Shown piece by piece: positions 1 through 36,717 of a stretch of 64,000 nt of DNA. The DNA comes from a bacterium. Lineage in GTDB: Bacteria; Zhuqueibacterota; Zhuqueibacteria; Residuimicrobiales; Oceaniaggregativiventaceae. The notes below the pieces were generated by a model. The model was not told the origin of the DNA. It saw only the letters and a list, made by a program, of their open reading frames with translations, and made no database searches. Position 1 is the first letter of the stretch. Every line of letters starts with the position of its first letter. The stretch lies in the NCBI GenBank assembly GCA_029565675.1, contig JAKQNP010000002.1, positions 62,001 through 126,000 of the forward strand, in the 5' to 3' direction. A program made the position numbers and the translations under genes.

Positions 1-1041
1 GAATGGCAGTACTATCTGCAAACCAGCGATCTCGACCGGTTGCGGCAAATATTGCCGGTGCTGGACCGCTTTTATGGTGCTGTCAAGAGACTGCACGGCA
101 CGCAAGCGGGACCCTATACCAGCGGCTATGCAGGCAACGGCATGAGCAATCGACCGCTCGGCACGCGGCTGATCGATCTGACCGCACAGCAAGCTCTGAA
201 CGCCTACCTGCTGAACAAGATGGCCGTGCAATGCGGCGAGCCGAAATTGGCACAAAAATATGAACGCGAACACGTTTTTCTGTCCCGGGCCATCAACTCG
301 ATGATGTGGAACGACGATGATCGATTCTATGGCGATCTGATCCGCGATATTTTGCCGATCAACCACTGGAGCATCGCCGGCTATTGGCCGCTCTTGGCCC
401 GGGTTGCCGAAAAAAAACATGTCGCCGGCTTGCTCGCCGCTCTACAGGATCCGACCAATTTCAACACGCCGCACCGCATCCCAACCCTGGGCAAACATTC
501 CATCGACTATTCCCCGCACGGCGATTTCTGGCGCGGCTCGGTTTATCCGCCGATGAATTATATGGTCATCAAAGGATTGGATGCCAATGGCCTCACGCAA
601 CAAGCCACAGAGATTGCTGAAAACCATTTGTTGGCGATCTATCTCACCACTATCTCATATGGAATGCTGTATGAGAGCTACCATCAGGCCACCCTCTACT
701 ATCCCAGCAATCGCAGCCGGGTCGATTTCGTCGGATGGACGGGCCTGAGCACCATCGCCTTGCTGATCGAAAATGTGATCGGCGTCCAGGTCAACGCTCC
801 AGAGCAGTTGATTCGCTGGGTTCTGCACCGCAATGACCAACACGGGATCAAGAATCTCCGCTGGGGACCGGATTGCGCTTTTCGCGCCGATCTGTTGGCA
901 CAAGCGCGGCAAGCGGGTGATCCTTCCTATCGAATCTTCGCAAAAGGAAATACCGACTTTACTCTGGAATTGATTTGCGACAATCAAAGCAAGCGCTATA
1001 AAATATCTGCAGAAAAAGAGCGGGAAATCCATTTTCCCTAG
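1..1041 (+). CDS. GH63/MGH1-like glycoside hydrolase, 3' part
   Basis: The reading frame is open from base 1, so the gene starts upstream of the window; a TTG at 40 is internal. About 346 residues remain. The sequence looks like the C-terminal half of an (alpha/alpha)6-barrel glycosidase of the GH63 / mannosylglycerate-hydrolase-like / trehalase-like group. It has the helix-rich repeats and a GDFWRGSVYPPMNYM block matching the family's YWRGxxWxxxNY signature. A later YESYHQ...DFVGW segment corresponds to the region around the catalytic base. The substrate cannot be told; alpha-glucosides or mannosylglycerate-type solutes are typical. No downstream gene is close enough to share its transcript: the next start is 436 bp away behind its own promoter. 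Family assignment is fairly sure, specificity is not. Confidence 0.7.
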   Translation, partial: EWQYYLQTSDLDRLRQILPVLDRFYGAVKRLHGTQAGPYTSGYAGNGMSNRPLGTRLIDLTAQQALNAYLLNKMAVQCGEPKLAQKYEREHVFLSRAINSMMWNDDDRFYGDLIRDILPINHWSIAGYWPLLARVAEKKHVAGLLAALQDPTNFNTPHRIPTLGKHSIDYSPHGDFWRGSVYPPMNYMVIKGLDANGLTQQATEIAENHLLAIYLTTISYGMLYESYHQATLYYPSNRSRVDFVGWTGLSTIALLIENVIGVQVNAPEQLIRWVLHRNDQHGIKNLRWGPDCAFRADLLAQARQAGDPSYRIFAKGNTDFTLELICDNQSKRYKISAEKEREIHFP

Positions 1042-1340: not shown

Positions 1341-1477
1341 CCAATAAACACAGCAAGGTATTTGCACCAGGCGAATGGAAACGGTTCTTGCTGCAAATGC
1401 AATAAAGACAACATAATAGATATCGATGGATTCTGTTGGCACAGAACCCGGATCATCAAAGAAAGAATGGTAGGCCG

Positions 1478-2476
1478 ATGAAAAAGCTGATACTATTTGT
1501 TGCGATAATCCTGTCGATTTCATGTGGTTTGTCTTTGGCACAGGACAAGTGGGCTCAGACCGGCTTTCAGTTCCTGAGCGTCAAAACTAACGCCAGGGCA
1601 ACGGCAATGGCAGAGGCTTTTTCTACCATTGAATCGACCAGTGAGGCTTTATTTTACAATCCAGCAGGTCTGGCCCGCATGAATACGACGTATGATGTTT
1701 CCATCAGCCAAATGCAGTGGATTGCTGATATCGATTACTTTTCCATAACCGCAGCTTTTAGATCCTGGAAGAGCCAGAATGGTGTAATCGGTTTTTCTCT
1801 GCAGGCTGTTGACTATGGTGATTTTTATTTTACTCAGGTTGCAAACAATGAGCAAGGTTTTGAAGATATTGAAGGCTGGAAAGGCCCCAGTGCCCTGATG
1901 TTCGGCTTGGCTTATGCCCGGGAATTATCGGACAAGTTTGCTGTCGGTGGACAGGTGAAATGTGCGAATCAGAATCTGGGCAACAGCATTGTCCCGGTTT
2001 ACAGCAAAAACGATACTGTGGTGGTGGAAAAATATTACGGTCTTAATGTACTGGCATTCGATTTTGGCACACTGTATAGAACCGGCTACAAGAGTTTAAA
2101 ATTTGGTATGTCGGTAAGAAATTTTTCTCAAGAGGTTCGATACGAAAAAGAGGATTTTCAACTGCCGTTGACCTTTCATATCGGCCTTTCCATGGATGTT
2201 CTGGACTTTTTGCCCGGCGTGCAAGGGCGGCATGCTTTATTGCTTTCCTTTGATGCTGCCCATCCCCGCTCACATCCGGAGTATGTCTCTTTTGGTGCTG
2301 AATACTGCTTGATGGATAGGCTTGCCTTGCGAACCGGTTACATGAGCAATCACTATGAAACTGATTTTTCCTTTGGAATTGGAGTTAAAAAACATGGTTT
2401 GCAGGTGGACTATTCCTATGTTCCGTTTCATGTTTTTGAAAACATCAATCGCTTCACTGCCAGATTTTCGTTTTAA
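1478..2476 (+). CDS. PorV/PorQ-family outer-membrane protein (module A)
   Basis: A 332-residue protein. The ATG at 1478 is chosen because it directly precedes a signal peptide (MKKLILFVAIILS...LSLAQ, residues 1-21); an in-frame start 42 bp upstream would add a hydrophilic tail before it. It has the family's N-terminal hallmark NARATAMAEAF followed by LFYNPAGLA, then alternating beta strands ending in an aromatic residue (RFTARFSF), as expected for an outer-membrane barrel. PorV-family proteins shuttle T9SS cargo to the PorU sortase or occur as PorQ/FadL-like barrels. This one is first in a three-gene run with a TonB receptor and a secreted protein. It is a paralogue of the genes at 33651 and 27227: all three share the NPAGLA/NPAL block. 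Whether it serves T9SS or solute uptake is open. Confidence 0.75.
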   Translation: MKKLILFVAIILSISCGLSLAQDKWAQTGFQFLSVKTNARATAMAEAFSTIESTSEALFYNPAGLARMNTTYDVSISQMQWIADIDYFSITAAFRSWKSQNGVIGFSLQAVDYGDFYFTQVANNEQGFEDIEGWKGPSALMFGLAYARELSDKFAVGGQVKCANQNLGNSIVPVYSKNDTVVVEKYYGLNVLAFDFGTLYRTGYKSLKFGMSVRNFSQEVRYEKEDFQLPLTFHIGLSMDVLDFLPGVQGRHALLLSFDAAHPRSHPEYVSFGAEYCLMDRLALRTGYMSNHYETDFSFGIGVKKHGLQVDYSYVPFHVFENINRFTARFSF

Positions 2477-2501
2477 TCTTTCTACCCGCTTGTAGGATCC
2501 A

Positions 2502-2521
2502 GATTCGGTGCTAACCGAATC
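2502..2521 (+). repeat. Intergenic palindrome, copy 2
   Basis: GATTCGGT (2502-2509), loop GCTA, ACCGAATC (2514-2521): a perfect 8-bp stem 26 bp after the PorV-like stop codon. It is the first of several hairpins in the 175-bp gap before the TonB receptor. Confidence 0.7.
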
Positions 2522-2559
2522 AAAAAACCATTCAATCGCTTATTCTTTATGCGGTTGCG

Positions 2560-2580
2560 AAAGGGTGATTTTCACCCTTT
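2560..2580 (+). promoter_or_regulatory. Intercistronic hairpin
   Basis: AAAGGGTGA (2560-2568), loop TTT, TCACCCTTT (2572-2580): a perfect 9-bp stem. It is preceded by a weaker stem (2532-2538 with 2551-2557). There is no run of T after it beyond TTT, so it is more likely an RNA-processing or attenuation element than a full terminator. Confidence 0.5.
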
Positions 2581-2610
2581 GTGTATTGCTCTCAGATAGA
2601 TTTTCTGTGA

Positions 2611-2633
2611 GATCCGGTGCTGTGCATCGAATC
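2611..2633 (+). repeat. Intergenic palindrome, copy 3 (degenerate)
   Basis: GATCCGGTGC (2611-2620), loop TGT, GCATCGAATC (2624-2633). Nine of ten positions can pair in RNA, one of them as G-U, with one C-A mismatch. It ends just before the strong ribosome-binding site TAGGAGGT of the TonB receptor gene. Confidence 0.55.
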
Positions 2634-2651
2634 CAGGTAGGAGGTAGGTTC

Positions 2652-5600
2652 ATGAGAGGAACTTTTGATAAGCTGCTGATATTTGTTCTCGTGTTGCTGC
2701 CTTGTGTTGTTTTTGCCGCCACCACAGGCAAGATTAGCGGCCGGGTGCTGGATGCCGAGACCGGTGAAGCGTTGCCCGGCGTTAATGTGATGATACAAGG
2801 AACACCATGGGGGGCTTCAACCAACTTGGATGGACACTATACAATTCTCAATGTGCCTCCTGGTACCTATACCCTTAAATTTTCCATGATTGGCTATGCA
2901 AATTATATCGTCAAAAATGTCAAGGTCGTCATCGATCTGACCACCACACAAAATGCCCAACTGGTGATCGAGACGATTGCCACACAAGAAGTTGTGGTTG
3001 TGGCGGAAAGACCCGTCGTGACCAAAGACATTTCCAACAGCCAGATGAATATCGAATCAGAAATAATCAAAAGTATGCCGGTACAGACAGTGAACCAGGT
3101 GCTCACTTTGCAGGCCGGAATTGAAAGCGGCAGTGAAGGCATTCTGGTTCGAGGGGGCGGGGCTCATCAGACGGTATTCATGCTCGACGGCCTCTCCCTG
3201 AATGACGAGCGTTCCAATATTCCCTATACCGCGATCAGTCTTGCTTCTGTTGAGGAGATTCAGGTGCAAACCGGCGGGTTCAATGCTGAATATGGGAATG
3301 CGCGTTCCGGTTTGGTCAATGTGGTTACCAGGGAAGGCAGTGCGGAGCGCTATACGGCCTCGATTTCGGTGCAGTACAGTCCGGCCGCAGCGAAACATTT
3401 TGGCAAGTCAGTTTATGATCCGTTTTCCTATTTCAACCGTCCTTATCTGGATCCCGATGTCTGCCTTACCGGAACTAAAAATGGGTTGTGGAATTCTTTT
3501 ATGCAAAAACAATATCCCAATTTTCAGGGATGGAATGCGGTTGCCATTGAAACGTTAAGAGATAAGGATCCGAACAACGATTTATCGCCCGAAGGGGCCA
3601 AACGATTGTATGAATGGCAGCATCGGCGTCAGGGTGACATCAAAGAACCGGATTATTTTGTCGATGCCGGATTCGGCGGGCTTGTACCATTTATCGGCAC
3701 CAGACTGGGTGATTTGCGTTTTTATGCCACCCACTATCGTGAACAGGACCTGTTTATCTTTCCGCTTTCTCGCGATTCCTATGATGAAAACCATACCCAG
3801 CTCAAATTGAGTTCAAATCTTACCCGTTCTGTCAAATTCACTTTAACCAGCCTGTACGGTGAAACCCATTCGGTTTCACCCTATGACTGGAAAACAACGC
3901 CCACAGGTCGGGTGCTCAACAGCACCGAAGAGATCGCTGATCTGGTCAACAGCAGCAGTGGGTCCAGTATTCTCTATATGCCGGGCTATTACAGCCCGAG
4001 CTCAATTTATCGGACCATTTTGGGGATGAGGCTGACCCATATTCTCAGCCCTGCAACCTTTTATGAAATCAATCTGCAGCACAACAGCAATCGCTACAAC
4101 ACTTATCAACTCGCTGACCGGGATACCACGAAAAAGTATGAACCGGTACCGGGATATTTTGTCGATGAGGCACCTTATGGCTATTATGGTTACAGTGTTT
4201 CCGGTATCGAGGGAATGAGCATGGGCGGGTGGATGAATCTCGGCAGAGACAAGAGCGTCAACTCGACAACCTCTTTTCGGGTTGATATAACGAGCCAGGT
4301 CAACACCCGAAATCAGATCAAAGCAGGCATTCATGCCACCTATAATGACTTTGATATCAAGTCGGCAACCGAAAGCCCATCGATGAGCACATGGACCCGG
4401 GATATGAGCTACAATGTGTTTCCCTATCGTGTGGGTGTTTATCTCCAGGACAAGCTTGAATACGAAGGTTTCATAGCTAACCTTGGCGTCCGGATGGATT
4501 ATTCGGATCCGAACAGCGATTGGTTTGAACTATCCGATTACGACAAGAATTTGTCTGCCGGGTATGGTAAAGATTTTGAAAATAAGGTTGAGACTGGCAG
4601 CACTCAAGCACAACTGACTACCAGTCCGCGACTCGGCATTTCCCATCCTATCACGGAGAATAGCAAGCTCTACTTCAATTATGGTCATTTTCGCCAGGAG
4701 CCGTTCTCCTCTTACCGTTTTCGCATCCAGAGAGAGTCAAATGGTCTGGTCACCTATCTCGGCAACCCAAATATGGAGTTGGAAAAAACAGTCGCCTATG
4801 AATTGGGATATGCGCAGAGTCTGTTCAATTCATTCTTGCTCAATATTGCTGCCTATTACAAGGATGTATCCAATCAACCGGGCTGGATTTATTATACCAA
4901 CATCAACGGCTCTGTGCAATATTATCAAGCGGCCAATAACAATTATGCGGACATTCGGGGGTTCGAGCTTAGCTTGACCAAAATGATGGGACAATACCTA
5001 ACCGGTTTTATCAATTATACCTACGATGTCACCACATCCGGATATTTCGGTCTGCAATACTATTATGAAGATCCCAATAAACAACGCGATTATCTGCGCT
5101 TGAATCCCTATCAATCCAGGCCGCATCCGCAACCTTATGCTCGGGCGAATCTCGATCTACATACGCCGGCGAATTTCGGGATTCGGATCGCTGGTTTTCA
5201 CCCATTGTCATTGCTCAACTTGAATATTATTGCGAACTGGCGGGCGGGCAGCTATTCGACTTATAATCCCAACAGTATACCCGGTGTTGTGGATAACGTC
5301 CAATGGAAGGATTACCACAATCTCAATCTTCGTCTGAGCAAAACCCTGCAGTTTTCCCGAACATCGGTGCAATTTTATGTCGATGTAAACAATGCTTTAA
5401 ATACCAAACGTCTCAGTTCTGCCGGATTTTCTGATAACTATGATTATGAAGATTACATGGCATCTCTTAATTTTAGCTGGGAAGAGGGAGTCGAGAAAGG
5501 CGATGATCGGATCGGAGACTATCGACCAGAAGGAGTCGCCTATGATCCTCTTGAACAAAATCCGCATAACGATCCGGAAATTCAGGCTCGCAATGATCGA

Positions 5601-5699
5601 CGCAAGGAAGATAAATCCTATATCGATATGCCAAATATCAACTCCTTTACCTTTTTGAATCCCCGTGACATCTTTTTTGGCGTCAAGATCAATTTTTAA
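2652..5699 (+). CDS. TonB-dependent receptor with N-terminal carboxypeptidase-regulatory-like domain (module A)
   Basis: A 1015-residue outer-membrane receptor. The ATG at 2652 has a strong TAGGAGGT site and begins a signal peptide (residues 1-23); earlier in-frame codons lie in the structured leader. Residues about 25-110 form a carboxypeptidase-regulatory-like beta-sandwich (GKISGRVLDAETGEALPGVN ... MIGYANY). Residues about 140-250 form the plug, with ILVRGGG, VFMLDGLSLND and FNAEYGNARSGLVNVVT. The rest is a 22-strand-type barrel ending in FFGVKINF. The architecture resembles SusC and other large FCB receptors, but no SusD follows. The next gene starts 24 bp later and encodes a secreted protein of unknown family. 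The substrate is unknown. There is no visible frameshift. Confidence 0.85.
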   Translation: MRGTFDKLLIFVLVLLPCVVFAATTGKISGRVLDAETGEALPGVNVMIQGTPWGASTNLDGHYTILNVPPGTYTLKFSMIGYANYIVKNVKVVIDLTTTQNAQLVIETIATQEVVVVAERPVVTKDISNSQMNIESEIIKSMPVQTVNQVLTLQAGIESGSEGILVRGGGAHQTVFMLDGLSLNDERSNIPYTAISLASVEEIQVQTGGFNAEYGNARSGLVNVVTREGSAERYTASISVQYSPAAAKHFGKSVYDPFSYFNRPYLDPDVCLTGTKNGLWNSFMQKQYPNFQGWNAVAIETLRDKDPNNDLSPEGAKRLYEWQHRRQGDIKEPDYFVDAGFGGLVPFIGTRLGDLRFYATHYREQDLFIFPLSRDSYDENHTQLKLSSNLTRSVKFTLTSLYGETHSVSPYDWKTTPTGRVLNSTEEIADLVNSSSGSSILYMPGYYSPSSIYRTILGMRLTHILSPATFYEINLQHNSNRYNTYQLADRDTTKKYEPVPGYFVDEAPYGYYGYSVSGIEGMSMGGWMNLGRDKSVNSTTSFRVDITSQVNTRNQIKAGIHATYNDFDIKSATESPSMSTWTRDMSYNVFPYRVGVYLQDKLEYEGFIANLGVRMDYSDPNSDWFELSDYDKNLSAGYGKDFENKVETGSTQAQLTTSPRLGISHPITENSKLYFNYGHFRQEPFSSYRFRIQRESNGLVTYLGNPNMELEKTVAYELGYAQSLFNSFLLNIAAYYKDVSNQPGWIYYTNINGSVQYYQAANNNYADIRGFELSLTKMMGQYLTGFINYTYDVTTSGYFGLQYYYEDPNKQRDYLRLNPYQSRPHPQPYARANLDLHTPANFGIRIAGFHPLSLLNLNIIANWRAGSYSTYNPNSIPGVVDNVQWKDYHNLNLRLSKTLQFSRTSVQFYVDVNNALNTKRLSSAGFSDNYDYEDYMASLNFSWEEGVEKGDDRIGDYRPEGVAYDPLEQNPHNDPEIQARNDRRKEDKSYIDMPNINSFTFLNPRDIFFGVKINF

Positions 5700-5723
5700 A
5701 TGCCGAATCGGATAGGAGTGGTC

Positions 5724-7865
5724 ATGAACAGACTGTTTCTATACAGCTTGATTTTTTTGCACACGATTGTTTTACTGCCCGGCGGCCGACTCTTTGCTCA
5801 GGTGGAGGGCATCGAAAAAAGATATGTTCGCATCGGTCAATTGCAGAGCCATTTTACCGCCTATGGGTCGGAACGCGCCTGGAATAACGTGTACTATGAA
5901 GGCATGCGATGGCCTGCAGATTATTCTTATACGGACAATGCGGTTATCAAGCGTGCCTGGATAACGTGCAAGGATTTTATCGATGCAAAGAACACGGTGT
6001 GGAATTATTACGGCATTCCATTGATTGCAGATCTGGTGGATGATGGGATTTTCCCAATGGAACTTTACCAAACAGCCAAATTTGAACCGCCGTTGGTTTT
6101 TGTCGATGGCACGGATATTACCGCCCCTTATGCCGAGGATATCGATGCAATCAATCCCGATCAAATTCCCGATCGCATCGTCACGAATATTGTCAATACC
6201 AGCATGGGCCTGACGATGAATCGCACCATCTACGCCTTCAGTCAGCAGTATCATGACAGTTATTTTATAAAAATATTCACTTTTACCAATACCGGCAATA
6301 CCGACTATGATGCCGAGATTGAACGAACCGGCCCCCTGAATGGGGTGCGAATCGGTTGGTCTTTTCGTTATAGCGTTTGCTATGAGGGATCTTTTGAAAT
6401 TGGTGGCCCCCAATCCTATGGCAAATACTCGTGGTGCACCAAACGCGGCGAAAATTATCAGGAGCATTTTGGTGAATCGATTACAGAAGCCAACCCGATC
6501 GTCGATTGGTTGCGCTGTGGATTTCAGTGGGCGGGCCAATCCGATGTGAACTCATTCGATAATATCGGTGGTCCGCAACGCACGGGCCCCGGCCGATTGA
6601 CTGCACCCCAGCATGCCGGCGTGGCAATCATTCATGTAGATAAAAGTGCGACCGATAAAACCGACGATCCCAATCAGCCGGCTGTCTTGGGTTGGCATGC
6701 CGGTGACACCTATCCCAAAATTGGCTCGATCTCTCCATTGCTAATGCCCACCCTCACCTACCTTTACGGTATGATGAGTGGTATTCCCTACGCCGGCCTG
6801 GGTGGAACCGATCGGTTCGATGAAACCTATATGCAAAGCCATTCTTCACCCTATACGGTGCATAATGATGGCGGCGGAACAAATGTCTGGATTTGCTATG
6901 GCCCCTTTGATTTACAGCCCGGTGAAAGTGTGACCATTGTCGAAGCCGAGGGCGTGAACGGATTGGACAGAGCCATGTGTGAGAAGATCGGACAGCGCTG
7001 GAGGAAGGCTTATGCCGATCCCAACGACAAAGGTCCGTTCGAGTTGCCGAATGGCACGACAACCACTGATAAAGATGAATATAAAAACAGCTGGGTCTAT
7101 ACCGGAAAAGACTCTATCATGATGATTTTTGGCAGAGCGAAACGGAATTTTGATGCCGGATACAACATTCCGCAACCACCGTTGCCACCCCCCCTGTTTG
7201 ACATCAAGTCTGGCGGCGATCGCATCAGCCTCTCCTGGTCGCCAAGTCCTTCGACCACAGAGAGCGGTGTCAGCGGTTATAAAATTTATCGCGCGGTCGG
7301 CAGAAAAGACACCACCTATACGGAAATCCATGATGGCCCCGCTTCTGTCACCAATTTTGATGACCTGACCGCGATACGCGGATTCTCCTATTATTACTAT
7401 CTGCTGGCTTATAATGACGGGAGCAACAACACCTCTGGAGCGACGAATCCGACAGGGCCCCTTTATAGCGGGCGATTTTATACACAAACCAGTGAACCCG
7501 CTTTCTTGCGGCGAAAAGCCGGAGACAATCTCGATGCCATTCGCATCGTTCCCAATCCGTTCAATATCAAAGCCAAGGATCTGCAGTATACGGGTGAACC
7601 GGACAAGATCATGTTTCTCAATATACCCGCTTATTGTACCATCAGAATCTATACTGAACGGGGTGACCTGATCAAGACAATCGAGCATACGGATGGAAGC
7701 GGAGATGAAGCGTGGAACTCGGTTACCTCATCACGGCAGGTGATCGTGAGCGGTATCTATATTGTGCATTTCGAAGTAACGGAGGATTATCGAAATCCTG
7801 AAACCGGAGAAATTCTTTATAAAAAAGGCGAAACCACTTTTCGAAAACTGATCGTCATTCGATAA
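5724..7865 (+). CDS. Secreted about 713-aa protein with fibronectin-like region and probable T9SS C-terminal domain (module A)
   Basis: The ATG at 5724 follows ATAGGAGTGGTC and starts a signal peptide (MNRLFLYSLIFLHTIV...LFAQ). The frame also has an ATG at 5700 directly on the upstream stop codon. Residues 25-450 are mixed beta sequence of no family I recognise. Around residue 490 a fibronectin-type-III-like segment begins (RISLSWSPSPST ... GYKIYRAVGRKD). The C terminus reads AIRIVPNPFN ... IRIYTERGDLIKTI ... FRKLIVIR, which resembles a type IX sorting domain lacking the usual NPTT. The same order of regions is found in the protein at 34699, also paired with a TonB receptor and a PorV-like barrel. 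I infer a surface-exposed partner of the receptor; the role is unproven. Confidence 0.65.
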   Translation: MNRLFLYSLIFLHTIVLLPGGRLFAQVEGIEKRYVRIGQLQSHFTAYGSERAWNNVYYEGMRWPADYSYTDNAVIKRAWITCKDFIDAKNTVWNYYGIPLIADLVDDGIFPMELYQTAKFEPPLVFVDGTDITAPYAEDIDAINPDQIPDRIVTNIVNTSMGLTMNRTIYAFSQQYHDSYFIKIFTFTNTGNTDYDAEIERTGPLNGVRIGWSFRYSVCYEGSFEIGGPQSYGKYSWCTKRGENYQEHFGESITEANPIVDWLRCGFQWAGQSDVNSFDNIGGPQRTGPGRLTAPQHAGVAIIHVDKSATDKTDDPNQPAVLGWHAGDTYPKIGSISPLLMPTLTYLYGMMSGIPYAGLGGTDRFDETYMQSHSSPYTVHNDGGGTNVWICYGPFDLQPGESVTIVEAEGVNGLDRAMCEKIGQRWRKAYADPNDKGPFELPNGTTTTDKDEYKNSWVYTGKDSIMMIFGRAKRNFDAGYNIPQPPLPPPLFDIKSGGDRISLSWSPSPSTTESGVSGYKIYRAVGRKDTTYTEIHDGPASVTNFDDLTAIRGFSYYYYLLAYNDGSNNTSGATNPTGPLYSGRFYTQTSEPAFLRRKAGDNLDAIRIVPNPFNIKAKDLQYTGEPDKIMFLNIPAYCTIRIYTERGDLIKTIEHTDGSGDEAWNSVTSSRQVIVSGIYIVHFEVTEDYRNPETGEILYKKGETTFRKLIVIR

Positions 7866-7904
7866 CCAACGATTTGATTGTCCTGAATACGGATGCCCTT
7901 GTTC

Positions 7905-11384: not shown

Positions 11385-14300
11385 ATGGAATATCGGTTTT
11401 ATCAGAGGTTGATGCCGCTACTGGCGGTCATGCTGCTGAGCTGGGCCACAGGGATACGTTTGTCCTGGGCTCAGGAGTTTGACATTCAGCGCGATTATAT
11501 CGGCCTCACCTTCCAATCATCCGGCGATCCGCGGGCACCGATTGTGGAAAGCGCGCTGTTTCTCGGTCTGCACCTGCAGGGAAGCCGTTCACCGTATTTC
11601 CCCCAACGCATCAGCGGTTTTAAACGCGCTGTGGAACTGGATTCTACCGGAAGATTTATCCAGTTGACCGAAACCATCGACGGTATCCCCTTTCGTTTGC
11701 CGGCCGTTTTGACGCGTGAAGATTATTTGCAGGAACGCGCGGATCTGGAATTGACCAGGTTGTGGAGAAACACTGCTGCCAAGAATGTCAGCGAGAGCGG
11801 CTACAGCCAACGGGGAGGAAGTCAGGGAATCCGCATCGACATACCGGTGGAAATCAAAAGCAAAACATTTCAAAAAATCTTCGGCAGCGGTACGGTCGGT
11901 CTCGACGTCTCCGGAGACATCAGTATCAGCGGTGGATTTCGCCATGAGAAACACAGCGAAGTCAAGACCGCCTTTAACCGCGGCTCCGATTACAATTTCA
12001 AGATGGAACAAACGCAGCGCTTTCGCGTGCAGGGACGCATCGGCGACAAGGTGACCATCGGCATCGATCAGGATTCAGAACGAGCTTTTGATTTCGAGAA
12101 CAACATCGAACTCAAATACGAGGGCTACGAAGACGAAATCATTCAATCGATCGAGGCGGGCAATATTTCGCTGAATCTGCCTGGTACGCAGTTTGTCACT
12201 TTTGGCGGCAAGAGCAGCGGCTTGTTCGGCATCAAGACCGAAGCGCGGATCGGCAATCTTTCCCTTACCGCCATCACCAGCCAGGAAAAAGGTGAAAAGA
12301 AACGGTTGTCGTTGACGGGCGGGGCTTCCGAGGCAGGCGAGCGGCGCGAAGACTATCAATATCGCAAAAACACCTATTATTTTGTCGATCAATTTTATCG
12401 CAATCAATATTTACAGCGCGACCAAAGCGGCAACTTTCTGATCGATCCCAATCGTATCATCAAAAAGCTCGAAGTCTATGTCTCTCGCCCAGGATTGACC
12501 AATGAAGCGGATGTCGTGCGCGGCTGGGCGATCGTGCCTCCCAACCCCGATGCCCTGCAATGGCAGATTGCCGCCGGCGACACAGCCAAAGCCGATCGCA
12601 ACCATTATGTCGGCTATTTCAAAAGGCTGGAAAAAAGCGATTATTATATCGACAACGAGTTGGGTTTTATCCGCCTGCGTTCGCCGCTGCAGCAGGAGGT
12701 GCTGGCCATCGCCTATCGCGACAGCACCGGCAGGACTCGCGGCGATATCAATTATGACAATACCACTGCCAGGACGATCACTCTGCGCCTGCTCAAGACC
12801 GAGACCCCGCTCGATACCGATCAGACCTGGGATCTTGAGTGGAAAAACGTCTACTATCTGGGTTCCCGCGATATTCCGGAAGACGGATTCGATCTTCGCA
12901 TCTATTACAAACCGCCTTCAGGCGATCCGCAGGAAACCACCACGATCGATGGCAAAGCTTATACCTTCCTGCAGATATTTGGACTGGACCGGGTCAACGA
13001 AAGCGGCGAGCCGATTCCGGACAACAAAATCGATATGAACCCGAATATCCTCAATCTGGCCAATGGCGAGCTCTTTTTCCCGGACATTCAACCGTTTGAT
13101 CCGCTCAGTGCAGAGTATCAAAAACTCCTGGCACCGGAATATCGCGTGCCAGCCATCTACGATACGACAGCGACCAATGTGATCACCGGTCAGAGCAATT
13201 TTTACATCGAGATCAAATCGCGCAACCGCAGCTCAGAATATCGCCTGGGCATGAACATTATCGAAAATTCGGAAGATGTGCGTTTGAATGGCAGGCAACT
13301 GACCCGTGGAGTCGATTACACAATCGATTATTTCACCGGCACCTTGCGCCTGTTGAACGAGCAAGCGACTCTCCCTTCGGCCAATTTGGATGTCACCTAT
13401 GAGAGCAATCAACTGTTTCAAATCGATAAAAAGACGGTGATCGGTGCCCGGGCGGAATACGATCTTTGGGATGAAAGCTTTCTCGGCGCTACCTTTATGT
13501 ATTTGAACGAAACGACCCTTGACCAAAAAGTGAGGGTAGGGCGTGGACCAATGCGCAACATGGTCTGGGATGTAAATACCAGTTTGAGCGTCAAGCCTTT
13601 TTTCCTCACACGCGTGGCCAATTGGCTGCCGTTTGTCGACACGCGGGAAGAATCGTCCATCAAGTTTGAAGGTGAAGTCGCGCAGGTCTTGCCCAATCCT
13701 AATACCAAGAACAATCCGCTGACCAACGACAATGACGGTGTAGCCTACATCGATGACTTTGAGGCTTCAAAACAGTTCACTCCGTTCAGCATCGTGCAAC
13801 AGAGTTGGGAGTATTGTGCGCCGCCGATGAAGGCGAACCTGTTCAATCCGGATTCGCCGACTCTGGAGAAGAGGGCGCGGTTGGTCTATTACAACCCCTA
13901 CGAGCAATATTTGATCAAACAGATCAAGCCCAACCAGGATGTCAACGCCAATGTCGCCCAGACCACCAACATCCTGGTTTTTAAGATCACGCCTCCCGAT
14001 TCTATCCCCGATGTCACAGAAGGTTGGAACGGTATCCAGATGGCCTTGTCATCCGGCTACTGGAATCAATCGGAAGCCAAGTTTCTTGAAATTTGGGTCA
14101 AGGGTGATTCGGGTGTTATACATATCAATCTCGGCGAAATCACCGAAGACATCATTCCAAACAAGAAACTCGACTCTGAAGATCGGATGAAAAACGGCAT
14201 CCGCAACGGCATTCTCGATGTTGAGGAGGGCGAGGATACCGGTATGGACGGCATGAGCGGCAAGGATCCATTTGATTTTTGGGATTTAAACGGCGACGGC

Positions 14301-17300
14301 ATTCGCAATTGGGGAGAGCCGATCAGCTGGGATGACTGGAGTTACAATTCAAACGTACGGCCCATCAACTATGATCGCGTCAATGGCACCGAAGGCAATG
14401 CCAACGATTATGGCGGACTTCGCTATCCGGACACCGAGGATCTGAACAGCAACGGCCAGCTTGACCAGAACAACGATTATTTCGAGTATTCCTTTTCACT
14501 TGATAAGAACTCTGCAGACGCCGATCGCTACCTGGTGGGCGGACTCGGCTTGCCGCCCGATCAGGACTTTGGCTGGCGGCAGTATCGCATTCCTCTCGAC
14601 GAATTTACCGACAAGGTCGGCAATCCGACCCTGTCGCTGATCAAATATGTGCGTATCTGGATGAGCGGTTTTACCTCCGCTCAAGAGCATACCATCCAGA
14701 TCGCTTATATCGATCTGGTCAGCAGTGAATGGAAGGAGATCGGTGTTGCCGGGGAGGCGGCGCCCGAACAGTACGAGTTGACCGAAGAACCGCCGGTGAC
14801 TGTGACGGTAATCAATACGCACGACAATCCGGAATACATTCCGCCGCCGGGAGTTATTGGCGAAGAGGACCGCATCACCGGGGTGATCGCCAAAGAACAG
14901 TCTCTGGTCATGCAAGTTGAAAATTTGTTGCCGGGTGAAAATGGGGCGATCCAAAAAACTTTTTATGAGGCACAGGACTATATTCATTATGAAAATTTAA
15001 AGATGTATGTTTATGGCGCGGATCTCTTTGGCAGCCACATTCACACCGATTCAAGCCGGATCGAGGTGTTTCTGCGTTTCGGTTCGGATGAAAGAAATTA
15101 CTATGAAGTGCGGCGCCCGGTTTATCCCGGCTGGCTCAACAATGACATCGACGTCGATCTGGTCGAGCTGGCCGCGCTCAAGCTCAAAGCCGATCCCGAC
15201 TCCACCATCGATGGCCGCTACGGATGGTCACAGGTTCTGCAAGACGGGCAAATACTCTTTATCAAAGGTCAACCTGCGCTGACCAATATTCGGACCTTGA
15301 TCGTGGGCGTCAAAAACCTCAGCGCCGAGGATTTGGGCGTGCCATTGAATGAAGTTTCGCCATTTAAAGGTCAAATTTGGATCAACGAGTTGCGTCTGTC
15401 CAATATCAAAAAAGATACAGGCATGGCGATGCGTGCGCGCCTCGATTTTCAATGGGCGGATCTGATCCGCTTCAATGGCGAAGTGGACAAGCGCGATGCG
15501 GATTTTCACAATGTGGCAGAGCGGTTCGGCGACGGGGACAACCAGCTCAGCGGCAATTTCAGCACAACGCTCTATCTCGACAAATTTTTCCCGCGCAAGC
15601 TCGGTATCTCGCTGCCAATCAATTACAATTATGCCGTGAGCGAAGCGACGCCGAAATACAAACCCGGAACCGACGTCGAAACCGAAGCTTTGCCCGATTC
15701 CATCATCGATGTTGTGCAAAAATACAATGAAAAAAAAGGCGTCAGTGTTTCCCTGTCGGTTACGTCGCGCTCGCAAAAATTTGTCGTTAAGAATCTCTTG
15801 TCCCAACTCAAGATGAGCTATAGCCGCAGCGAGTCCTACAGCCACAACTCCACCACCCAATACGCCAATGGTTTGCAGGAAAACGCCAAAGTAGATTGGG
15901 GGATCAACTTTTCCCGCGACAACTATTTCAAGCCGTTCAAATGGCTGGGCGACTCCGGGCGGTTGCGAAAATTGACAGATCTCAAACTCTATTACACGCC
16001 GCAGTCGATCACCACCAGTCATAATGGGATACGCAACAATCAGGAATCTCTGACCCGCACAGAGGTGTTCAGCGCCAACAGCACTTTTTCGGTTAACCGC
16101 AATTATTCCACCCGTATCAAGATTTTCGAAAATTTATCGCTCGATATGAGCCGCAACTACATCCACGATCTGCGTGGATTGCCGAGCGATACCCTCTGGG
16201 CGCAGATCAAGCAAGGGCAACTCGGCCTTTTAACCGGAATCGATCAAAACAGTTCGCTCAAATATTCGCCACAGATCTTTAGCTGGTTGACCAACAATTT
16301 CAATTATTCGGCTGGATTTAAGTACGGCTTTAATCGGCAACAGACTTTGGCGGCGGCAAATGCGTCGCAAAACCGAACCTTGAGTTTTAATGGTTCCTTG
16401 AATCTCAAGAATCTGGTTCGCTCGATCTACGATCCTGACAAAAACAAACCAGGTGCCAGAGGCGGCCGCCCCGGCGGACGTCCGCGTCCGGGCCAACCAC
16501 AGGCCTCCACGAGTGATGAAAAAAAACCGGAAGAGAAAGGCGGACCCAATCTCGCCTTGCAGGGTTTGGGTTATTTTGTCAAGTTTTTCAGCATTTTTGA
16601 TCCATTTACCCTCAACTGGTCCGACCGCAACAACATCACCGCCTATGGCGTTATGGGGATTCCGGCATGGGGGTTCCAGTTTGGTCTGACCGACAGCCTG
16701 GGCGTTCCCCTCGAACTGAGCAGCGGCAGCGGCAGTCTGAACCGGGGGTCGAGCAGCAAGAATCGCTCTTTCAACACCTCGTCGGGCTTTAACATCGGTC
16801 GCGATATCGATGTGGATATCAAATATGATCAATCCTATTCGCTCAATACCAGCACACAAACTACCGGTTCTCGTTCGCAGGCCTGGCTGACTTTTGGCGA
16901 TGACATCGATATGCTTTTTCCAAACTGGTCGGTGCGCATCGGCGGCGGCGAAAGGTTGCCGTTGCTGAAAAACTGGTTTAGCCGGGTGTCATTGGATCAC
17001 GCCTATAACGGACAAAATTCCGAAACCTTTGATATGGAAGACGGCCAGGAGACCCCGACCAAGACAAACAGCAAATCGGGTTTTCGTCCGCTGATCGGTG
17101 TGACCATGCAGATGAAGAACGGACTGTCCCTGCAGGCGCGTTACAACAAACAAGAAGACGAATCCGTCAGTCTGGGTTCGAATTTTGGCGCAACCCGGTC
17201 CGAGGATGATGATCTCTCTCTGACGGCAAATTGGTCCAAACAGAGCGATTTTCGCATTCCGATTTGGCCTTTCAACACGATGAGGTTGAAAAACAGCATC

Positions 17301-17543
17301 AATTTTTCCTTTACTTTCGCCATGACCGGCCAACAACAATTCAAGAGCCGGGCCGGCGGCGATTATGAGCCAACCTCGGAGACCAGCAAGTGGTCTCTCA
17401 AACCTGCCGTGCAGTACAGCTTTAGCGACAAAGTGCGCGGCGGAGCGAGTTTTGAAATGGGGAAAACCCACAATGCCCTCGTCGGCGATTCGTCCTTCAA
17501 AGAGTTTTCCGTTGACGTCAAGATCGCCATACATGGCAACTGA
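11385..17543 (+). CDS. sprA: SprA-family T9SS outer-membrane translocon
   Basis: A 2052-residue protein, close in size to Flavobacterium SprA (about 2400), the giant single-chain barrel that forms the type IX secretion pore. A signal peptide covers residues 1-29 (ATGIRLSWAQ). The rest is almost wholly beta, with SprA-typical blocks such as AYIDDFEASK (about 787-796) and FFSIFDPFTLNWSDRNN (about 1732-1748). Asp-rich, EF-hand-like loops (DLNGDGIRNWGEP, about 967-979) occur mid-protein. A Gly/Arg/Pro-rich linker (about 1692-1722) looks flexible. No good ribosome-binding site precedes the ATG at 11385; an ATG at 11412 after AGAGG is an alternative. prmA follows after 9 bp. SprA needs PorV and a plug protein in Flavobacterium; porV lies at 27227. 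Confidence 0.85.
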   Translation: MEYRFYQRLMPLLAVMLLSWATGIRLSWAQEFDIQRDYIGLTFQSSGDPRAPIVESALFLGLHLQGSRSPYFPQRISGFKRAVELDSTGRFIQLTETIDGIPFRLPAVLTREDYLQERADLELTRLWRNTAAKNVSESGYSQRGGSQGIRIDIPVEIKSKTFQKIFGSGTVGLDVSGDISISGGFRHEKHSEVKTAFNRGSDYNFKMEQTQRFRVQGRIGDKVTIGIDQDSERAFDFENNIELKYEGYEDEIIQSIEAGNISLNLPGTQFVTFGGKSSGLFGIKTEARIGNLSLTAITSQEKGEKKRLSLTGGASEAGERREDYQYRKNTYYFVDQFYRNQYLQRDQSGNFLIDPNRIIKKLEVYVSRPGLTNEADVVRGWAIVPPNPDALQWQIAAGDTAKADRNHYVGYFKRLEKSDYYIDNELGFIRLRSPLQQEVLAIAYRDSTGRTRGDINYDNTTARTITLRLLKTETPLDTDQTWDLEWKNVYYLGSRDIPEDGFDLRIYYKPPSGDPQETTTIDGKAYTFLQIFGLDRVNESGEPIPDNKIDMNPNILNLANGELFFPDIQPFDPLSAEYQKLLAPEYRVPAIYDTTATNVITGQSNFYIEIKSRNRSSEYRLGMNIIENSEDVRLNGRQLTRGVDYTIDYFTGTLRLLNEQATLPSANLDVTYESNQLFQIDKKTVIGARAEYDLWDESFLGATFMYLNETTLDQKVRVGRGPMRNMVWDVNTSLSVKPFFLTRVANWLPFVDTREESSIKFEGEVAQVLPNPNTKNNPLTNDNDGVAYIDDFEASKQFTPFSIVQQSWEYCAPPMKANLFNPDSPTLEKRARLVYYNPYEQYLIKQIKPNQDVNANVAQTTNILVFKITPPDSIPDVTEGWNGIQMALSSGYWNQSEAKFLEIWVKGDSGVIHINLGEITEDIIPNKKLDSEDRMKNGIRNGILDVEEGEDTGMDGMSGKDPFDFWDLNGDGIRNWGEPISWDDWSYNSNVRPINYDRVNGTEGNANDYGGLRYPDTEDLNSNGQLDQNNDYFEYSFSLDKNSADADRYLVGGLGLPPDQDFGWRQYRIPLDEFTDKVGNPTLSLIKYVRIWMSGFTSAQEHTIQIAYIDLVSSEWKEIGVAGEAAPEQYELTEEPPVTVTVINTHDNPEYIPPPGVIGEEDRITGVIAKEQSLVMQVENLLPGENGAIQKTFYEAQDYIHYENLKMYVYGADLFGSHIHTDSSRIEVFLRFGSDERNYYEVRRPVYPGWLNNDIDVDLVELAALKLKADPDSTIDGRYGWSQVLQDGQILFIKGQPALTNIRTLIVGVKNLSAEDLGVPLNEVSPFKGQIWINELRLSNIKKDTGMAMRARLDFQWADLIRFNGEVDKRDADFHNVAERFGDGDNQLSGNFSTTLYLDKFFPRKLGISLPINYNYAVSEATPKYKPGTDVETEALPDSIIDVVQKYNEKKGVSVSLSVTSRSQKFVVKNLLSQLKMSYSRSESYSHNSTTQYANGLQENAKVDWGINFSRDNYFKPFKWLGDSGRLRKLTDLKLYYTPQSITTSHNGIRNNQESLTRTEVFSANSTFSVNRNYSTRIKIFENLSLDMSRNYIHDLRGLPSDTLWAQIKQGQLGLLTGIDQNSSLKYSPQIFSWLTNNFNYSAGFKYGFNRQQTLAAANASQNRTLSFNGSLNLKNLVRSIYDPDKNKPGARGGRPGGRPRPGQPQASTSDEKKPEEKGGPNLALQGLGYFVKFFSIFDPFTLNWSDRNNITAYGVMGIPAWGFQFGLTDSLGVPLELSSGSGSLNRGSSSKNRSFNTSSGFNIGRDIDVDIKYDQSYSLNTSTQTTGSRSQAWLTFGDDIDMLFPNWSVRIGGGERLPLLKNWFSRVSLDHAYNGQNSETFDMEDGQETPTKTNSKSGFRPLIGVTMQMKNGLSLQARYNKQEDESVSLGSNFGATRSEDDDLSLTANWSKQSDFRIPIWPFNTMRLKNSINFSFTFAMTGQQQFKSRAGGDYEPTSETSKWSLKPAVQYSFSDKVRGGASFEMGKTHNALVGDSSFKEFSVDVKIAIHGN

Positions 17544-22330: not shown

Positions 22331-25300
22331 ATGAAATCATACTCTGCAATTAGAAAAGAATGTTGCGCTGCGGTTGTGTGCAACCATCAGCGCTGGATGC
22401 TCCTGCGCCGATGGCTGGCTCTGCTCTTGCTGCTCGGAGCGCCTGCCTATGGAAAAATGCAGTTGACACAACAATCCAACCGACAATTGATAGTTTCTTG
22501 TGGTCTGGACAGCACTCAGGTGCGTTCGCTGTTGACGAAAGACCGACCTCAAATCCAACAGCAGATTTCCCAAGAAGCGTGGAAACCATCCGGCCCTTTT
22601 GGTTTGCCGATGCAGGTTCTGCCGCTGCATATTCCTGCCGCCGATGTTGAGCTGCGGGTCGATTCGATCGAAAGCGAGCAGATGGTTGTCGAAGATGGGT
22701 TGCCGCGGGTTTGGGAGATGAGTTTATCCGAGGCAAAAAAATGGGAAATCGACGGCCGTGTAAATGGCGATGAACCCGTCTCTATTCAGCGTTTGGGGCG
22801 GATGCAAGGACTCGATATTTGGCAATTGTCGTTCCGGCCGCTGCATTACGATTCAGTCAGTCGAAAATTGACCGTTTTTCGATCCTTGCGGGCGACTGTC
22901 CGATGGAGCGATAATTCAGAAAGCGACACGGGCCGGCGACAACTCGACAGCGAGCGGATCGGCATGGCCAAGGATTTGGGTATCGTGTTGGGCGAGGCGC
23001 GGATGGCCACTCCGCCTGATCGGCAAAATCTCGCAGCGGTGAGTGCAAGTCCGGCGCGGTGGAAGATCTACATCGAGGAAGATGGTTGGTATCGAGTAAC
23101 GGGAAGCGATTTACACCAGGCTGGGATTGACTTGCTGTCCATCGATGTTCAGGCGCTGCGTCTGACCGATGGATCGAGCGATGTGCCGATCTATGTCAGC
23201 GGATGGCAAGATGGCCAATTTCACGAGACCGATAGTTTTGAATTTTGGGGCGAAACTGCGCGCAACAGCGATCGTCAGACGTCACCGGACTTGTATCAGG
23301 ATCCTTACAGCCGAACAAAAATTTATTTTTTGAGCTGGAGCGGCCAGCCTGGTCTATGGATGGTCGATGAATCCGCAGCGCCGACTGGCAGCCCTGCGAC
23401 CAATGTCCGGCGTCCGTATTCGTTTATGCAAACCATGCATGTCGAGCGCGATGTCAGTTTTAACCATCTTGTTGAAGTCCCGGAAGGATTGCGCCGGGAT
23501 CACTTTTTCTTCGACGGCGGTATCGCTGCAGCCGAAAAACGGGATTATGAGTTCGATCTTTGGCATCCGGACAAGCGCTCGGCTCAGCCGCTGCAAGTGC
23601 AGGTCATGATGCGAGGGAAAACCGTACCCTCGTCCACCATCGATCTTTTTTTGCATCGGGTTTCTGCTTATCTGAACAACCGCTATGTGATGCAAGGCGA
23701 ATGGTACGGTCAGGACTATCTCGATATGCGCACTCAAGGGCAGTCCGGTTTGACAGGTGCCGATCTCAATTCCGGCAAGAACCGTTTGACGGTCATCAAT
23801 CTTTTGGATCCCAACAAGATCGACTATGTTCTGCTGAATTGGTTCGAAGTGACTTATCCGCGGCTTTACCGGGCGCAGGAAGGATGGCTGCGTTTTACGA
23901 TTCCATCTGAGGAAGAATTGGGCCTCTACCAGTTTCGCATCGATGGTTTTTTGCATGAAAATATCGATGTCTTCAAGATGGGGATCAGCCGTATGGTGGG
24001 CGGCGTGGCCAAAGAGACGGTGGATTATGACAATTTTGCTTCTGTCCAGATCACCTTTCAGGATGAAATTGCCTCTCGTGCGGTCGAGTATGTCGCCATC
24101 GCCCGCGACCGCAAAAAAACACCTCACCGCATCAGCCCTGATCACCCCAGCCAGCTGAGGTCTCCAGATTTGGCCGCCGACTATGTGGTCATTGCCCACC
24201 AGAACTTTTACAACAGCCAAGGATTGGATGAGCTGATCAACAGACGGCAGAGTCAAGGCTTGCGGGTGCTTAAAGTGGATGTCGAAGATATCTTCGACGA
24301 ATTCGGCGACGGCCGTCCGACTCCGGAAGCGATCAAGGCCTTTTTAAACCACGCCTATCACCATTGGGAAAATCCGCGGTTGCGCTATGTCCTTTTGGTC
24401 GGCAACGGCAGCCGCATTCGGCGAACGGCGGCCGGCGACACGCTGGATTTTATCCCGGTTTATCTCCGGCAAACCTGGAAATGGGGGGCAACGGCCAGCG
24501 ACTACTGGTACACATTATTGGACGGCGATGATGAGTTGTCCGATATCGCCATCGGTCGATTGCCGGCACGCACCGAGGAAGAGTGCGATATTTTGGCGCG
24601 CAAGATTGTCGGCTACGAAACCACCGCCTCTCCGGGGCATTGGCGAAATCGGCTTTTGTTTATCGGCGGAAATTTCAGCACGCAGGCGCCGTTCGATCAA
24701 CAGGCACTCGAACTGGTATCGACTCTTTCGCCGGCCTTAAACAAGAATATATTGTTGAGCATAAGACGTCGCGGCCTGGTCGATGATCCGTTTTATGGCA
24801 GCACCACCGATTTGCTCGACTATTTCGACCAGGGATGTGCGATCATCAACTTTCATGGCCACGGTGGCGGTGGAATCTGGGCGGATAATGGTCTGCTGCG
24901 CACTGAAGATGTCGCGCGTATTACCAACCGCGGCAAGCTGCCTTTCATTATGAGCATGACCTGTTTTTCCGGTGCGTTCGAATCTTCGAGCTATCGCGGT
25001 TTGGCGGATGCACTTCTTTTCAACACGGAAAACGGCGCCGTCGCTTTTATGGGCGCCAGCGGTGAAGGATGGGTGTTGAATGATTATTTGCTGCAACGCG
25101 CCATCCTGCAACTTTTCGATCAAAATCCTTCTTTGCCTTTAGGTGAACTGATACGCCTCGGCAAAAATCTCTACCAAATCGCCAACGGCCCCAATTTGTA
25201 TGTGTTCGCGGAAACCAATCAATACCATTTGTTGGGTGATCCTGCAATGCGGCTGGGGGTACCGCAGAAACGGCTCCCTCTACAGGTGGATCGGCACTTG

Positions 25301-27205
25301 CTCGAACGGGGGGCCAATCTGACGGCTGCCGCACATCTGCCGTTCAGCCGCGGCAAGGGTTATGCTGCTATCGTCGACAGCGCGCTGGCGCTCAGCGATT
25401 GGCGGGAAGCACCGATTCAGGCCGGGACTGCCTCAGTTCAGGTCGAAGTGCCTGCTGATTTTGCCGGGTCAGAAGGACATCTTGTGTTTTACGCCGAAGA
25501 CGAATTGGGAATTGACCGCGTTCATGCCGCTGCTTCTCTTTCTCTGGCAGCAGCTCTTTTTGATTCCATCCGGATTGAGTTGGTCGACCGCGACAGCAGC
25601 CGCCTGGCAGTGCGTATCATTGCCGAATCAACAGTCGAAGCGGCGTGGTGCCGTGTTCAGCAAGATTCGGTTCCGCTTTTTCCAATCATCGGAACAACCT
25701 ATCGGTCATATCCTTTTTACTATCCATACGGATTCACCTATCAGCTCTTTGCCCGCCTGGCTGATGGCAGAGTCATCTCTGGTCTTCCAACCAATTATAC
25801 ATCAGCCGGCCACATCGATCTGGCGCTGAACAGCGAGTCGATCCGTCTGACCGGTGTGCGCGAAACCCAACTGACCGCGCAAGTCAGCAACAACAGCAAC
25901 ACAGATCTCAGCGATGTGGTGGTGCAGTTCGAGTATTTCGATCCACAAAGCAGCCAATGGCGCTTGTTGGGTCGGGATAAAGCCGAACTGCCGGCGCTGG
26001 GGAAGGCCGAGGTGAACCTCGCTTTCGCGCCGCTGCCAGGTCGTGCCCAGGTGCGCGTCGAGATCGATCCGGATAGTCTCTGCGATCGGCTCTATCGCTA
26101 TGACAACCGCACCATCACCAGTTTTGTGGTTGATCGATACACCGTCATCCCGGAACGAGGAGTGGTCGCCGGCGATAGTGTGTTGACAAATCTGGCAGTG
26201 GATTCGACTTTTACCTTGTTTGTTGGCGCCGGTTCGGTATCCCTGCCGACTGTTTTGACCGTGCAGGTCGGCGAATCTCCTGAAATCGTCGAGCAGCCCG
26301 ATTTTGCGGCGCTGGCCGGCATGCCCGTTTACCGGTTTTTTCTTGCTGACACGCTGGCCTATTTTAGCAAATCCATTGAGCTTCAATTTTATCTGTCGCC
26401 GGTTCTTCAAACCCAGTTGGCTGCGGTCGGCAAGCCGGCCAATGTATTTTATCGGCAGGCAGCGACCGGCAAGTGGGTGCGGCAAAACAGCCAGCCCCAG
26501 GGTGACCACTTGCTGATTTCGGTGCAGCAACCCGGAGAGTATACGGTTTTGGTGGGCGAAGATCATCTGGCGCCGACCGTCGAAATGACAATCGACGGGC
26601 AACCGCCGATTGAGCAAGCCTATGTGCAGCGTCGGCCGCGTATCGGCGCCATATTGCAGGATTTGAATGGCATCGATTTATCTGCAGCCGGTTTGCAGTT
26701 TCAGCTCGATGGCCGGTTGCTGCCGCCAGCAGAATGGATTTTACCGACGGTCATCACCAACGGCAACCATTGTCTGGTCGAGATCAGGCCGGAACTTGAC
26801 CCCGGTCAACATCACCTGCAGCTGACCGTGTCTGATTGCTTCGGCAATCGATCGCTGCAGAACGAATTTTCCTTTCAGGTGGCAGATCGCTTTGAATTGC
26901 GCCTTTTGGGCACTTATCCCAATCCTTTCGAGCGGGAGACAATTTTTGCCTATGAATTGACCCAGCCGTGCGAACAGCTGGAAATCAAGATCTATACCGC
27001 TTCCGGGCAGTTGATCCGAGCCCTGGATGCACGCTCCAACACTGCCGACGCCAATCCTTTGGGTGCCGACTATCACGAGTTGCTGTGGGATGGTCGGGAT
27101 GAGATGGGTGATTCTGTGGCAAATGGAGTTTATTTTTATCGAATCTCGGTTCGTGGAGCCGGTCAAACAAAGGAAATGACCGGCAAACTCATGCGACTGC
27201 AATAA
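22331..27205 (+). CDS. porU: PorU-like T9SS sortase (C25 gingipain-fold peptidase)
   Basis: A 1624-residue secreted protein. The N terminus has a hydrophobic signal (RRWLALLLLLGAPAYG, residues 26-41). The C25 caspase-like domain covers about 615-985. It contains LLVGNGSRI, SDYWYTLLDGDDELSDIAIG, the catalytic His in NFHGHGGGG (His844) and the catalytic Cys in MSMTCFSGAF (Cys878). The 34-residue spacing is as in gingipains. Beta-sandwich domains follow. The end is a sorting-domain/FlgD-like module (YPNPFERETIFAYEL ... GVYFYRISV). PorU cleaves sorting domains from cargo and joins the product to the surface anchor. At 1624 residues it is longer than Bacteroidota PorU (about 1100-1200) because of added beta domains. 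The porV gene follows after 21 bp, which supports PorU over an ordinary secreted C25 protease. No clear ribosome-binding site is visible. Confidence 0.82.
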   Translation: MKSYSAIRKECCAAVVCNHQRWMLLRRWLALLLLLGAPAYGKMQLTQQSNRQLIVSCGLDSTQVRSLLTKDRPQIQQQISQEAWKPSGPFGLPMQVLPLHIPAADVELRVDSIESEQMVVEDGLPRVWEMSLSEAKKWEIDGRVNGDEPVSIQRLGRMQGLDIWQLSFRPLHYDSVSRKLTVFRSLRATVRWSDNSESDTGRRQLDSERIGMAKDLGIVLGEARMATPPDRQNLAAVSASPARWKIYIEEDGWYRVTGSDLHQAGIDLLSIDVQALRLTDGSSDVPIYVSGWQDGQFHETDSFEFWGETARNSDRQTSPDLYQDPYSRTKIYFLSWSGQPGLWMVDESAAPTGSPATNVRRPYSFMQTMHVERDVSFNHLVEVPEGLRRDHFFFDGGIAAAEKRDYEFDLWHPDKRSAQPLQVQVMMRGKTVPSSTIDLFLHRVSAYLNNRYVMQGEWYGQDYLDMRTQGQSGLTGADLNSGKNRLTVINLLDPNKIDYVLLNWFEVTYPRLYRAQEGWLRFTIPSEEELGLYQFRIDGFLHENIDVFKMGISRMVGGVAKETVDYDNFASVQITFQDEIASRAVEYVAIARDRKKTPHRISPDHPSQLRSPDLAADYVVIAHQNFYNSQGLDELINRRQSQGLRVLKVDVEDIFDEFGDGRPTPEAIKAFLNHAYHHWENPRLRYVLLVGNGSRIRRTAAGDTLDFIPVYLRQTWKWGATASDYWYTLLDGDDELSDIAIGRLPARTEEECDILARKIVGYETTASPGHWRNRLLFIGGNFSTQAPFDQQALELVSTLSPALNKNILLSIRRRGLVDDPFYGSTTDLLDYFDQGCAIINFHGHGGGGIWADNGLLRTEDVARITNRGKLPFIMSMTCFSGAFESSSYRGLADALLFNTENGAVAFMGASGEGWVLNDYLLQRAILQLFDQNPSLPLGELIRLGKNLYQIANGPNLYVFAETNQYHLLGDPAMRLGVPQKRLPLQVDRHLLERGANLTAAAHLPFSRGKGYAAIVDSALALSDWREAPIQAGTASVQVEVPADFAGSEGHLVFYAEDELGIDRVHAAASLSLAAALFDSIRIELVDRDSSRLAVRIIAESTVEAAWCRVQQDSVPLFPIIGTTYRSYPFYYPYGFTYQLFARLADGRVISGLPTNYTSAGHIDLALNSESIRLTGVRETQLTAQVSNNSNTDLSDVVVQFEYFDPQSSQWRLLGRDKAELPALGKAEVNLAFAPLPGRAQVRVEIDPDSLCDRLYRYDNRTITSFVVDRYTVIPERGVVAGDSVLTNLAVDSTFTLFVGAGSVSLPTVLTVQVGESPEIVEQPDFAALAGMPVYRFFLADTLAYFSKSIELQFYLSPVLQTQLAAVGKPANVFYRQAATGKWVRQNSQPQGDHLLISVQQPGEYTVLVGEDHLAPTVEMTIDGQPPIEQAYVQRRPRIGAILQDLNGIDLSAAGLQFQLDGRLLPPAEWILPTVITNGNHCLVEIRPELDPGQHHLQLTVSDCFGNRSLQNEFSFQVADRFELRLLGTYPNPFERETIFAYELTQPCEQLEIKIYTASGQLIRALDARSNTADANPLGADYHELLWDGRDEMGDSVANGVYFYRISVRGAGQTKEMTGKLMRLQ

Positions 27206-36699: not shown

Positions 36700-36717
36700 C
36701 AAAATCCTCCATTGTGC

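Follow-up and report, generated by a model that had tools for sequence, protein, structure and literature searches.

Nutrient capture in FCB bacteria has been described mainly through SusCD systems. The locus at 1478-7865 of the window (the whole 64,000-nucleotide stretch of DNA that was analysed) raises the question of whether a TonB-dependent receptor (TBDR) may be served by a surface partner of another kind. It holds three adjacent genes, for an outer-membrane barrel, a TBDR and a secreted protein, hereafter Sec. The first-pass annotation had read them as an uptake system without SusD, in which Sec is exported by the T9SS as the receptor's partner and the barrel is dedicated to Sec. The observation behind this proposal was confirmed and proved broader than stated, and the interpretation was supported in part.

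Genes of module A

The three genes (module A) are arranged in the order PorV-TBDR-Sec, with gaps of 175 bp between barrel and TBDR and 24 bp between TBDR and Sec:

1478..2476, + strand: PorV/PorQ-family outer-membrane barrel (332 aa; NF033709 197.5 bits, cut-off 90)
2652..5699, + strand: TBDR (1015 aa; CarboxypepD_reg N-terminal extension and Plug)
5724..7865, + strand: secreted protein, Sec (713 aa)
5799..7169, + strand: Sec N-domain, residues 26-482 (weakly beta-supersandwich-like)
7191..7421, + strand: Sec FN3-like domain, about residues 490-566 (PDB profile match, E 8e-6; AlphaFold2 model)
7521..7862, + strand: Sec C-terminal T9SS-type tail, residues 600-713

The barrel was placed in the PorV/PorQ family, as had been proposed, by its NF033709 score. 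It fell below the PorV/PorQ equivalog cut-offs (NF033710 / NF033711, 81 bits against 250 and 92 bits against 220) and below that of the PorP/SprF model TIGR03519 (33 bits, cut-off 90.6), passed Pfam PF11751 at 30.9 bits, and had PorV (6h3i_F, E 7e-4) as its nearest solved chain. The receptor had been called SusC-like; it is a TBDR with CarboxypepD_reg and Plug domains, and its assignment as a true SusC was dropped at 70 bits with the SusC/RagA model TIGR04056 (cut-off 368). A PDB sequence search with the receptor returned matches confined to its N-terminal extension, and promoter and terminator scans of 1000-8200 gave signals not, or little, above chance level.

A dispersed repeat of ~140 bases occupies 2497-2640, in the gap that separates the PorV-like gene from the TBDR gene, and is also found at L063:4493-4622 and L099:10105-10242. 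Among the matches listed, at least 42 lie in the genome, most at 82-86% identity (40 of 125 candidates scored); the repeat has five predicted hairpins with a folding z-score of -4.5, and an Rfam search returned no match to it. Convergent with Sec are two minus-strand genes (8136-10608) that by eye resemble LptF/LptG, the lipopolysaccharide export pair.

Module B and the upstream twin triplet

The three types had been reported to recur at 30713-39489. A second set (module B) is present on the minus strand at 33651-39489:

36718..39489, - strand: TBDR
34699..36702, - strand: Sec (667 aa)
33651..34640, - strand: PorV-family barrel (NF033709 218 bits, cut-off 90)

Its order, TBDR-Sec-PorV, is the usual one elsewhere, unlike that of module A. 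The remaining part of the reported interval, 30713-33472, was dropped as a member; it encodes a protein of FG-GAP/BNR type whose tail is an ordinary type A one, lies outside the recurring order and is a neighbour of the set.

A twin of module A (TBDR2, Sec2, PorV2) lies just upstream of the window, followed by a lipoprotein with a TIG domain and an SMP-30-like T9SS protein bearing a type A tail, and then by a glycoside hydrolase that stands between the twins and reaches into the window:

1..1041, + strand: secreted MGH1/GH63-like glycoside hydrolase, 3' part (L100:279-1742)

Members of the TIG-domain lipoprotein family (~410 aa; L063:13907-15148, with relatives at 32 more loci) frequently come after triplets of this subfamily. 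A PDB search with the family gave no match, and it may be a further surface binding protein.

Recurrence of the triplet

A scan of species genomes with Sec located 62 loci in KSB1, Calditrichota, Neomarinimicrobiota and Ignavibacteria MAGs, the closest relative (72%) being in a KSB1 MAG, in line with an own genome of KSB1/Calditrichota type. Counting Sec genes with at least 4 kb of upstream sequence, a same-strand TBDR was directly upstream of 74 of 77: 44/45 species-scan loci, 19/20 loci picked from the phylum's other genomes and 11/12 in the own genome. The single picked locus that missed has a second Sec gene in tandem, and TBDR>Sec>PorV was present in all 20 of the picked loci. Where flanks were sufficient, a PorV-family gene stood beside the TBDR-Sec pair in 54 of 58 loci; three complete loci had the pair with no PorV gene nearby, and the TBDR-Sec pair is thus taken as the core, for which the barrel may in some cases be encoded elsewhere. 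Recurrence of the triplet in related genomes had been named beforehand as a check on the proposal, and its co-occurrence is beyond chance.

The search tables and fetched stretches gave ten sets for the own genome, nine contiguous and one loose; relatives have up to ~20 copies. In two further genomes (G015 and G021), where loci were picked for a PorV gene near a TBDR and so show order and not frequency, nearly every fetched set was ordered TBDR>Sec>PorV. Across five genomes, 73 of 113 PorV-family genes above cut-off had a same-strand TBDR within 10 kb, against ~8 expected from random placement. Random placement ignores operon clustering, and the better control is therefore the contrast between receptors of different size: of the 116 large TBDRs (open frames of 820 aa or more), 77 had a PorV gene nearby, as against none of the 49 smaller receptors.

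Some loci (L012, L014, L028 and L086) carry Sec genes or TBDR-Sec pairs in tandem, with a single PorV gene or none nearby; they lend themselves to the question of whether two cargos can share a barrel. Outside the triplets, PorV-family matches also occur inside open frames of ~640-1090 aa (G000:C63:67631, C56:16570 and similar cases in G015, G021, G022 and G037), representing either PorV-type barrels joined to other domains or simply a long frame.

Domains, leader and tail of Sec

Sec had been described as a signal-peptide protein with a fibronectin-like segment and a sorting-like end, and each of these features was recovered. Pfam and NCBIfam searches with module A Sec gave nothing above cut-off. 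The full-length protein was modelled confidently by AlphaFold2 (pLDDT 88.9, pTM 0.84) as an N-domain, an FN3-like domain and a C-terminal beta domain, and the N-domain modelled alone reached pLDDT 94.1 and pTM 0.93. The best PDB fold matches of the N-domain (TM-score 0.22-0.37) were nearly all enzymes carrying a domain of the type for which we take "supersandwich" to be the fold name: GH94 phosphorylases, cyclic glucan synthase, GH116, GH149 and copper amine oxidases. With TM-scores below 0.4, the modelled N-domain weakly resembles these carbohydrate-enzyme domains in fold type, which is no classification. A fold search with full-length Sec was swamped by tandem FN3 proteins and was uninformative.

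The tail was compared profile-to-profile with four type A tails of the own genome and matched them with probability 95.4 and E 1.7e-8. In family searches at E up to 0.1, module A Sec itself was not listed for the type A C-terminal domain TIGR04183, which 18 of 69 relatives matched, and the PorZ tail was matched by 51/69. CHU_C was matched by 9/69, and the type B tail TIGR04131 was absent among the families listed for the 69 members. At profile level, a sorting-type tail is supported.

The leader of module A Sec ends in FAQ and is of signal-peptidase-I type. A simple lipobox scan was positive for 9 of 113 Sec proteins, near the barrel and receptor background, and for 26 of 40 members of the neighbouring lipoprotein family. 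Judged by its leader, Sec is not a lipoprotein.

SusD and T9SS components

The stated lack of SusD held well beyond the locus: the own genome had no match to either of two Pfam models, SusD_RagB and SusD-like_3, nor did G015 or G021. Among 39 genomes of the phylum, 11 had SusD-like_3 and 16 had SusD_RagB above cut-off, in most cases as 1-3 copies. The Sec profile matched all 39, with 2-35 matches each, part of which cover the FN3 and tail regions only. The T9SS translocon is encoded in the window, together with a protein related to PorU:

11385..17543, + strand: SprA/Sov, T9SS translocon (TIGR04189 919 bits, cut-off 200)
22331..27205, + strand: PorU-related protein (NF033707 334 bits, below the cut-off of 420)

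The best PorV candidate of the own genome lies elsewhere (C62:650943, 224 bits, cut-off 250).

Co-divergence of the three proteins

Distances between triplets were correlated for all protein pairs, also among the paralogues of single genomes (r 0.64-0.86), where shared species ancestry plays no part because paralogues of one genome are compared. With the third protein held constant in three genomes, the barrel followed the Sec tail (0.40, 0.32, 0.38) more closely than Sec's N-terminal part (0.21, 0.15, 0.16); for the receptor, the closer correspondence was with the N-terminal part (0.47, 0.56, 0.49) and the weaker one with the tail (0.24, 0.48, 0.24). The preference has the direction expected under the arrangement proposed below but fell short of 95% bootstrap, ~10% of replicates lying on the wrong side, and the alignments behind it differ slightly between runs. 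Paralogue divergence therefore leans, not significantly, towards pairing of the barrel with the tail and of the receptor with the N-domain, and genes that move together co-diverge in any case.

Comparison with known systems

The triplets share with SusCD/RagAB of Bacteroidota a TonB receptor with a CarboxypepD_reg extension beside an extracytoplasmic protein without a membrane barrel, the presence of many paralogous pairs per genome, and glycan enzymes near some of them. They differ in that the receptor is far under the SusC/RagA cut-off, the partner is neither SusD nor a lipoprotein and bears a T9SS-type tail, and a PorV-family barrel completes the set of three. In SusCD complexes the partner caps the receptor as a lid and delivers the substrate to it.

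Type B cargo of the T9SS is served by cognate PorP/SprF barrels, whose genes usually lie directly downstream, the pairing setting the final location (PMC12618676), and PorP and SprF remain bound to their cargo (PMC9143113). The succession of a cargo gene and a shuttle-related barrel gene, repeated within one genome, is common to those systems and the triplets, but the latter have a type A kind of tail, a PorV/PorQ-family barrel and, in addition, a TonB receptor. Type A cargo uses one general PorV and not dedicated barrels (PMC12618676); the triplets have the same barrel and tail families, but with many PorV-family paralogues placed by individual cargo genes. In BamG/BamH of the BAM complex, a FadL-type barrel holds a surface protein via extracellular loops (PMC12578637), much as the PorV-family barrel would hold Sec, although there the surface protein, BamH, is a lipoprotein, and the complex works in outer-membrane protein assembly.

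The proposed dedication of the barrel to Sec is plausible in the light of these cargo-barrel precedents, which are of another kind (PMC12618676, PMC9143113), but the co-divergence only leans towards it and the three complete loci with no PorV gene nearby speak against it. No description of the triplet system was found in open-access literature on KSB1, Ignavibacteria, Marinimicrobia and PorV-like families.

Proposed arrangement and alternatives

The SprF, PorP/SprF and BamG/BamH precedents, combined with the gene unit, make a T9SS-delivered, barrel-docked partner of the TonB receptor the likeliest reading. We propose, at a probability of about 0.5, that each triplet forms one outer-membrane complex, a functional counterpart of SusCD in which the lipid-anchored SusD is replaced by a T9SS-exported protein docked on a barrel. 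Sec would enter the periplasm by its signal peptide and be exported across the outer membrane by way of its C-terminal domain, which the neighbouring PorV-family barrel would receive from the SprA translocon. The barrel would then either keep Sec docked in the membrane or pass it on, as SprF does with type B cargo. The N-domain would sit over or beside the co-encoded receptor and capture a ligand for energised uptake; this ligand would probably be a glycan fragment.

An arrangement in which only the TBDR and Sec form the uptake unit, Sec being exported by the general PorV and the barrel of the operon being a FadL-like channel or having some other role, is unlikely, though it is to be taken seriously. 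It would account for a barrel that falls short of both the PorV and the PorQ equivalog models, for the tighter TBDR-Sec core and the three complete loci that have no PorV gene nearby, and for the usual carriage of type A cargo by a general PorV (PMC12618676); a PorV candidate is encoded at another place in the genome. It sits less well with the family as a whole, which consists of T9SS barrels, with the lack of any PorV gene beside the small TBDRs, and with PorV distances that track the tail over the N-domain in three genomes, if not significantly. We also think it unlikely that Sec acts at the surface as an enzyme, adhesin or structural component, co-regulated with the receptor and never touching it, so that the operon would be a functional set and not a complex. 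Many neighbours are indeed ordinary T9SS-tailed surface proteins and the best fold matches of the N-domain are enzymes, but direct TBDR-Sec adjacency in 74 of 77 cases across phyla, together with matching paralogue divergence, exceeds what co-regulation usually produces. An assembly or export device, for instance for the surface placement of proteins, with the receptor as a gated channel for another task, is very improbable despite the BamG/BamH example in the BAM complex (PMC12578637), since the receptor has a plug and an N-terminal extension and ~10 to 20 diverged copies per genome are more in keeping with a range of substrates than with a single housekeeping role.

Substrate

Close Sec relatives have 82 neighbours on the same strand, of which 38 bear a type A tail, 12 are GHL10 proteins and two are GH20 hexosaminidases. 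The enzyme family met most often beside these relatives is thus that of the GHL10 glycoside-hydrolase-like proteins (L001:14994-18134, L004:12292-15447, L048:15036-18116 and others), which could be a clue to the substrate; elsewhere, triplets are flanked by different enzymes or by none. The GHL10 and GH20 neighbours and the MGH1-like hydrolase between the twins together point to glycans, and the ligand of this subfamily is perhaps an amino-sugar or peptidoglycan fragment.

Significance

SusD is rare or absent in these phyla, and the three-gene unit, at ~10-20 copies per genome, stands in its place. Tentatively, the triplets may represent a separate class of TonB uptake complex, prevailing in KSB1/Calditrichota-type bacteria and found also in Neomarinimicrobiota and Ignavibacteria. 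Every receptor of this class would be matched with a T9SS-exported surface protein, kept in the membrane by a PorV-family barrel of its own, so that nutrient uptake and the sorting of T9SS cargo would be united in a single system. If so, the T9SS would be tied directly to transport, the abundance of PorV paralogues in these genomes would be explained, and a rule would be at hand for predicting receptor-partner pairs in uncultured lineages. Cognate pairing of cargo and shuttle, known for type B tails, would also become testable on the type A/PorV side.
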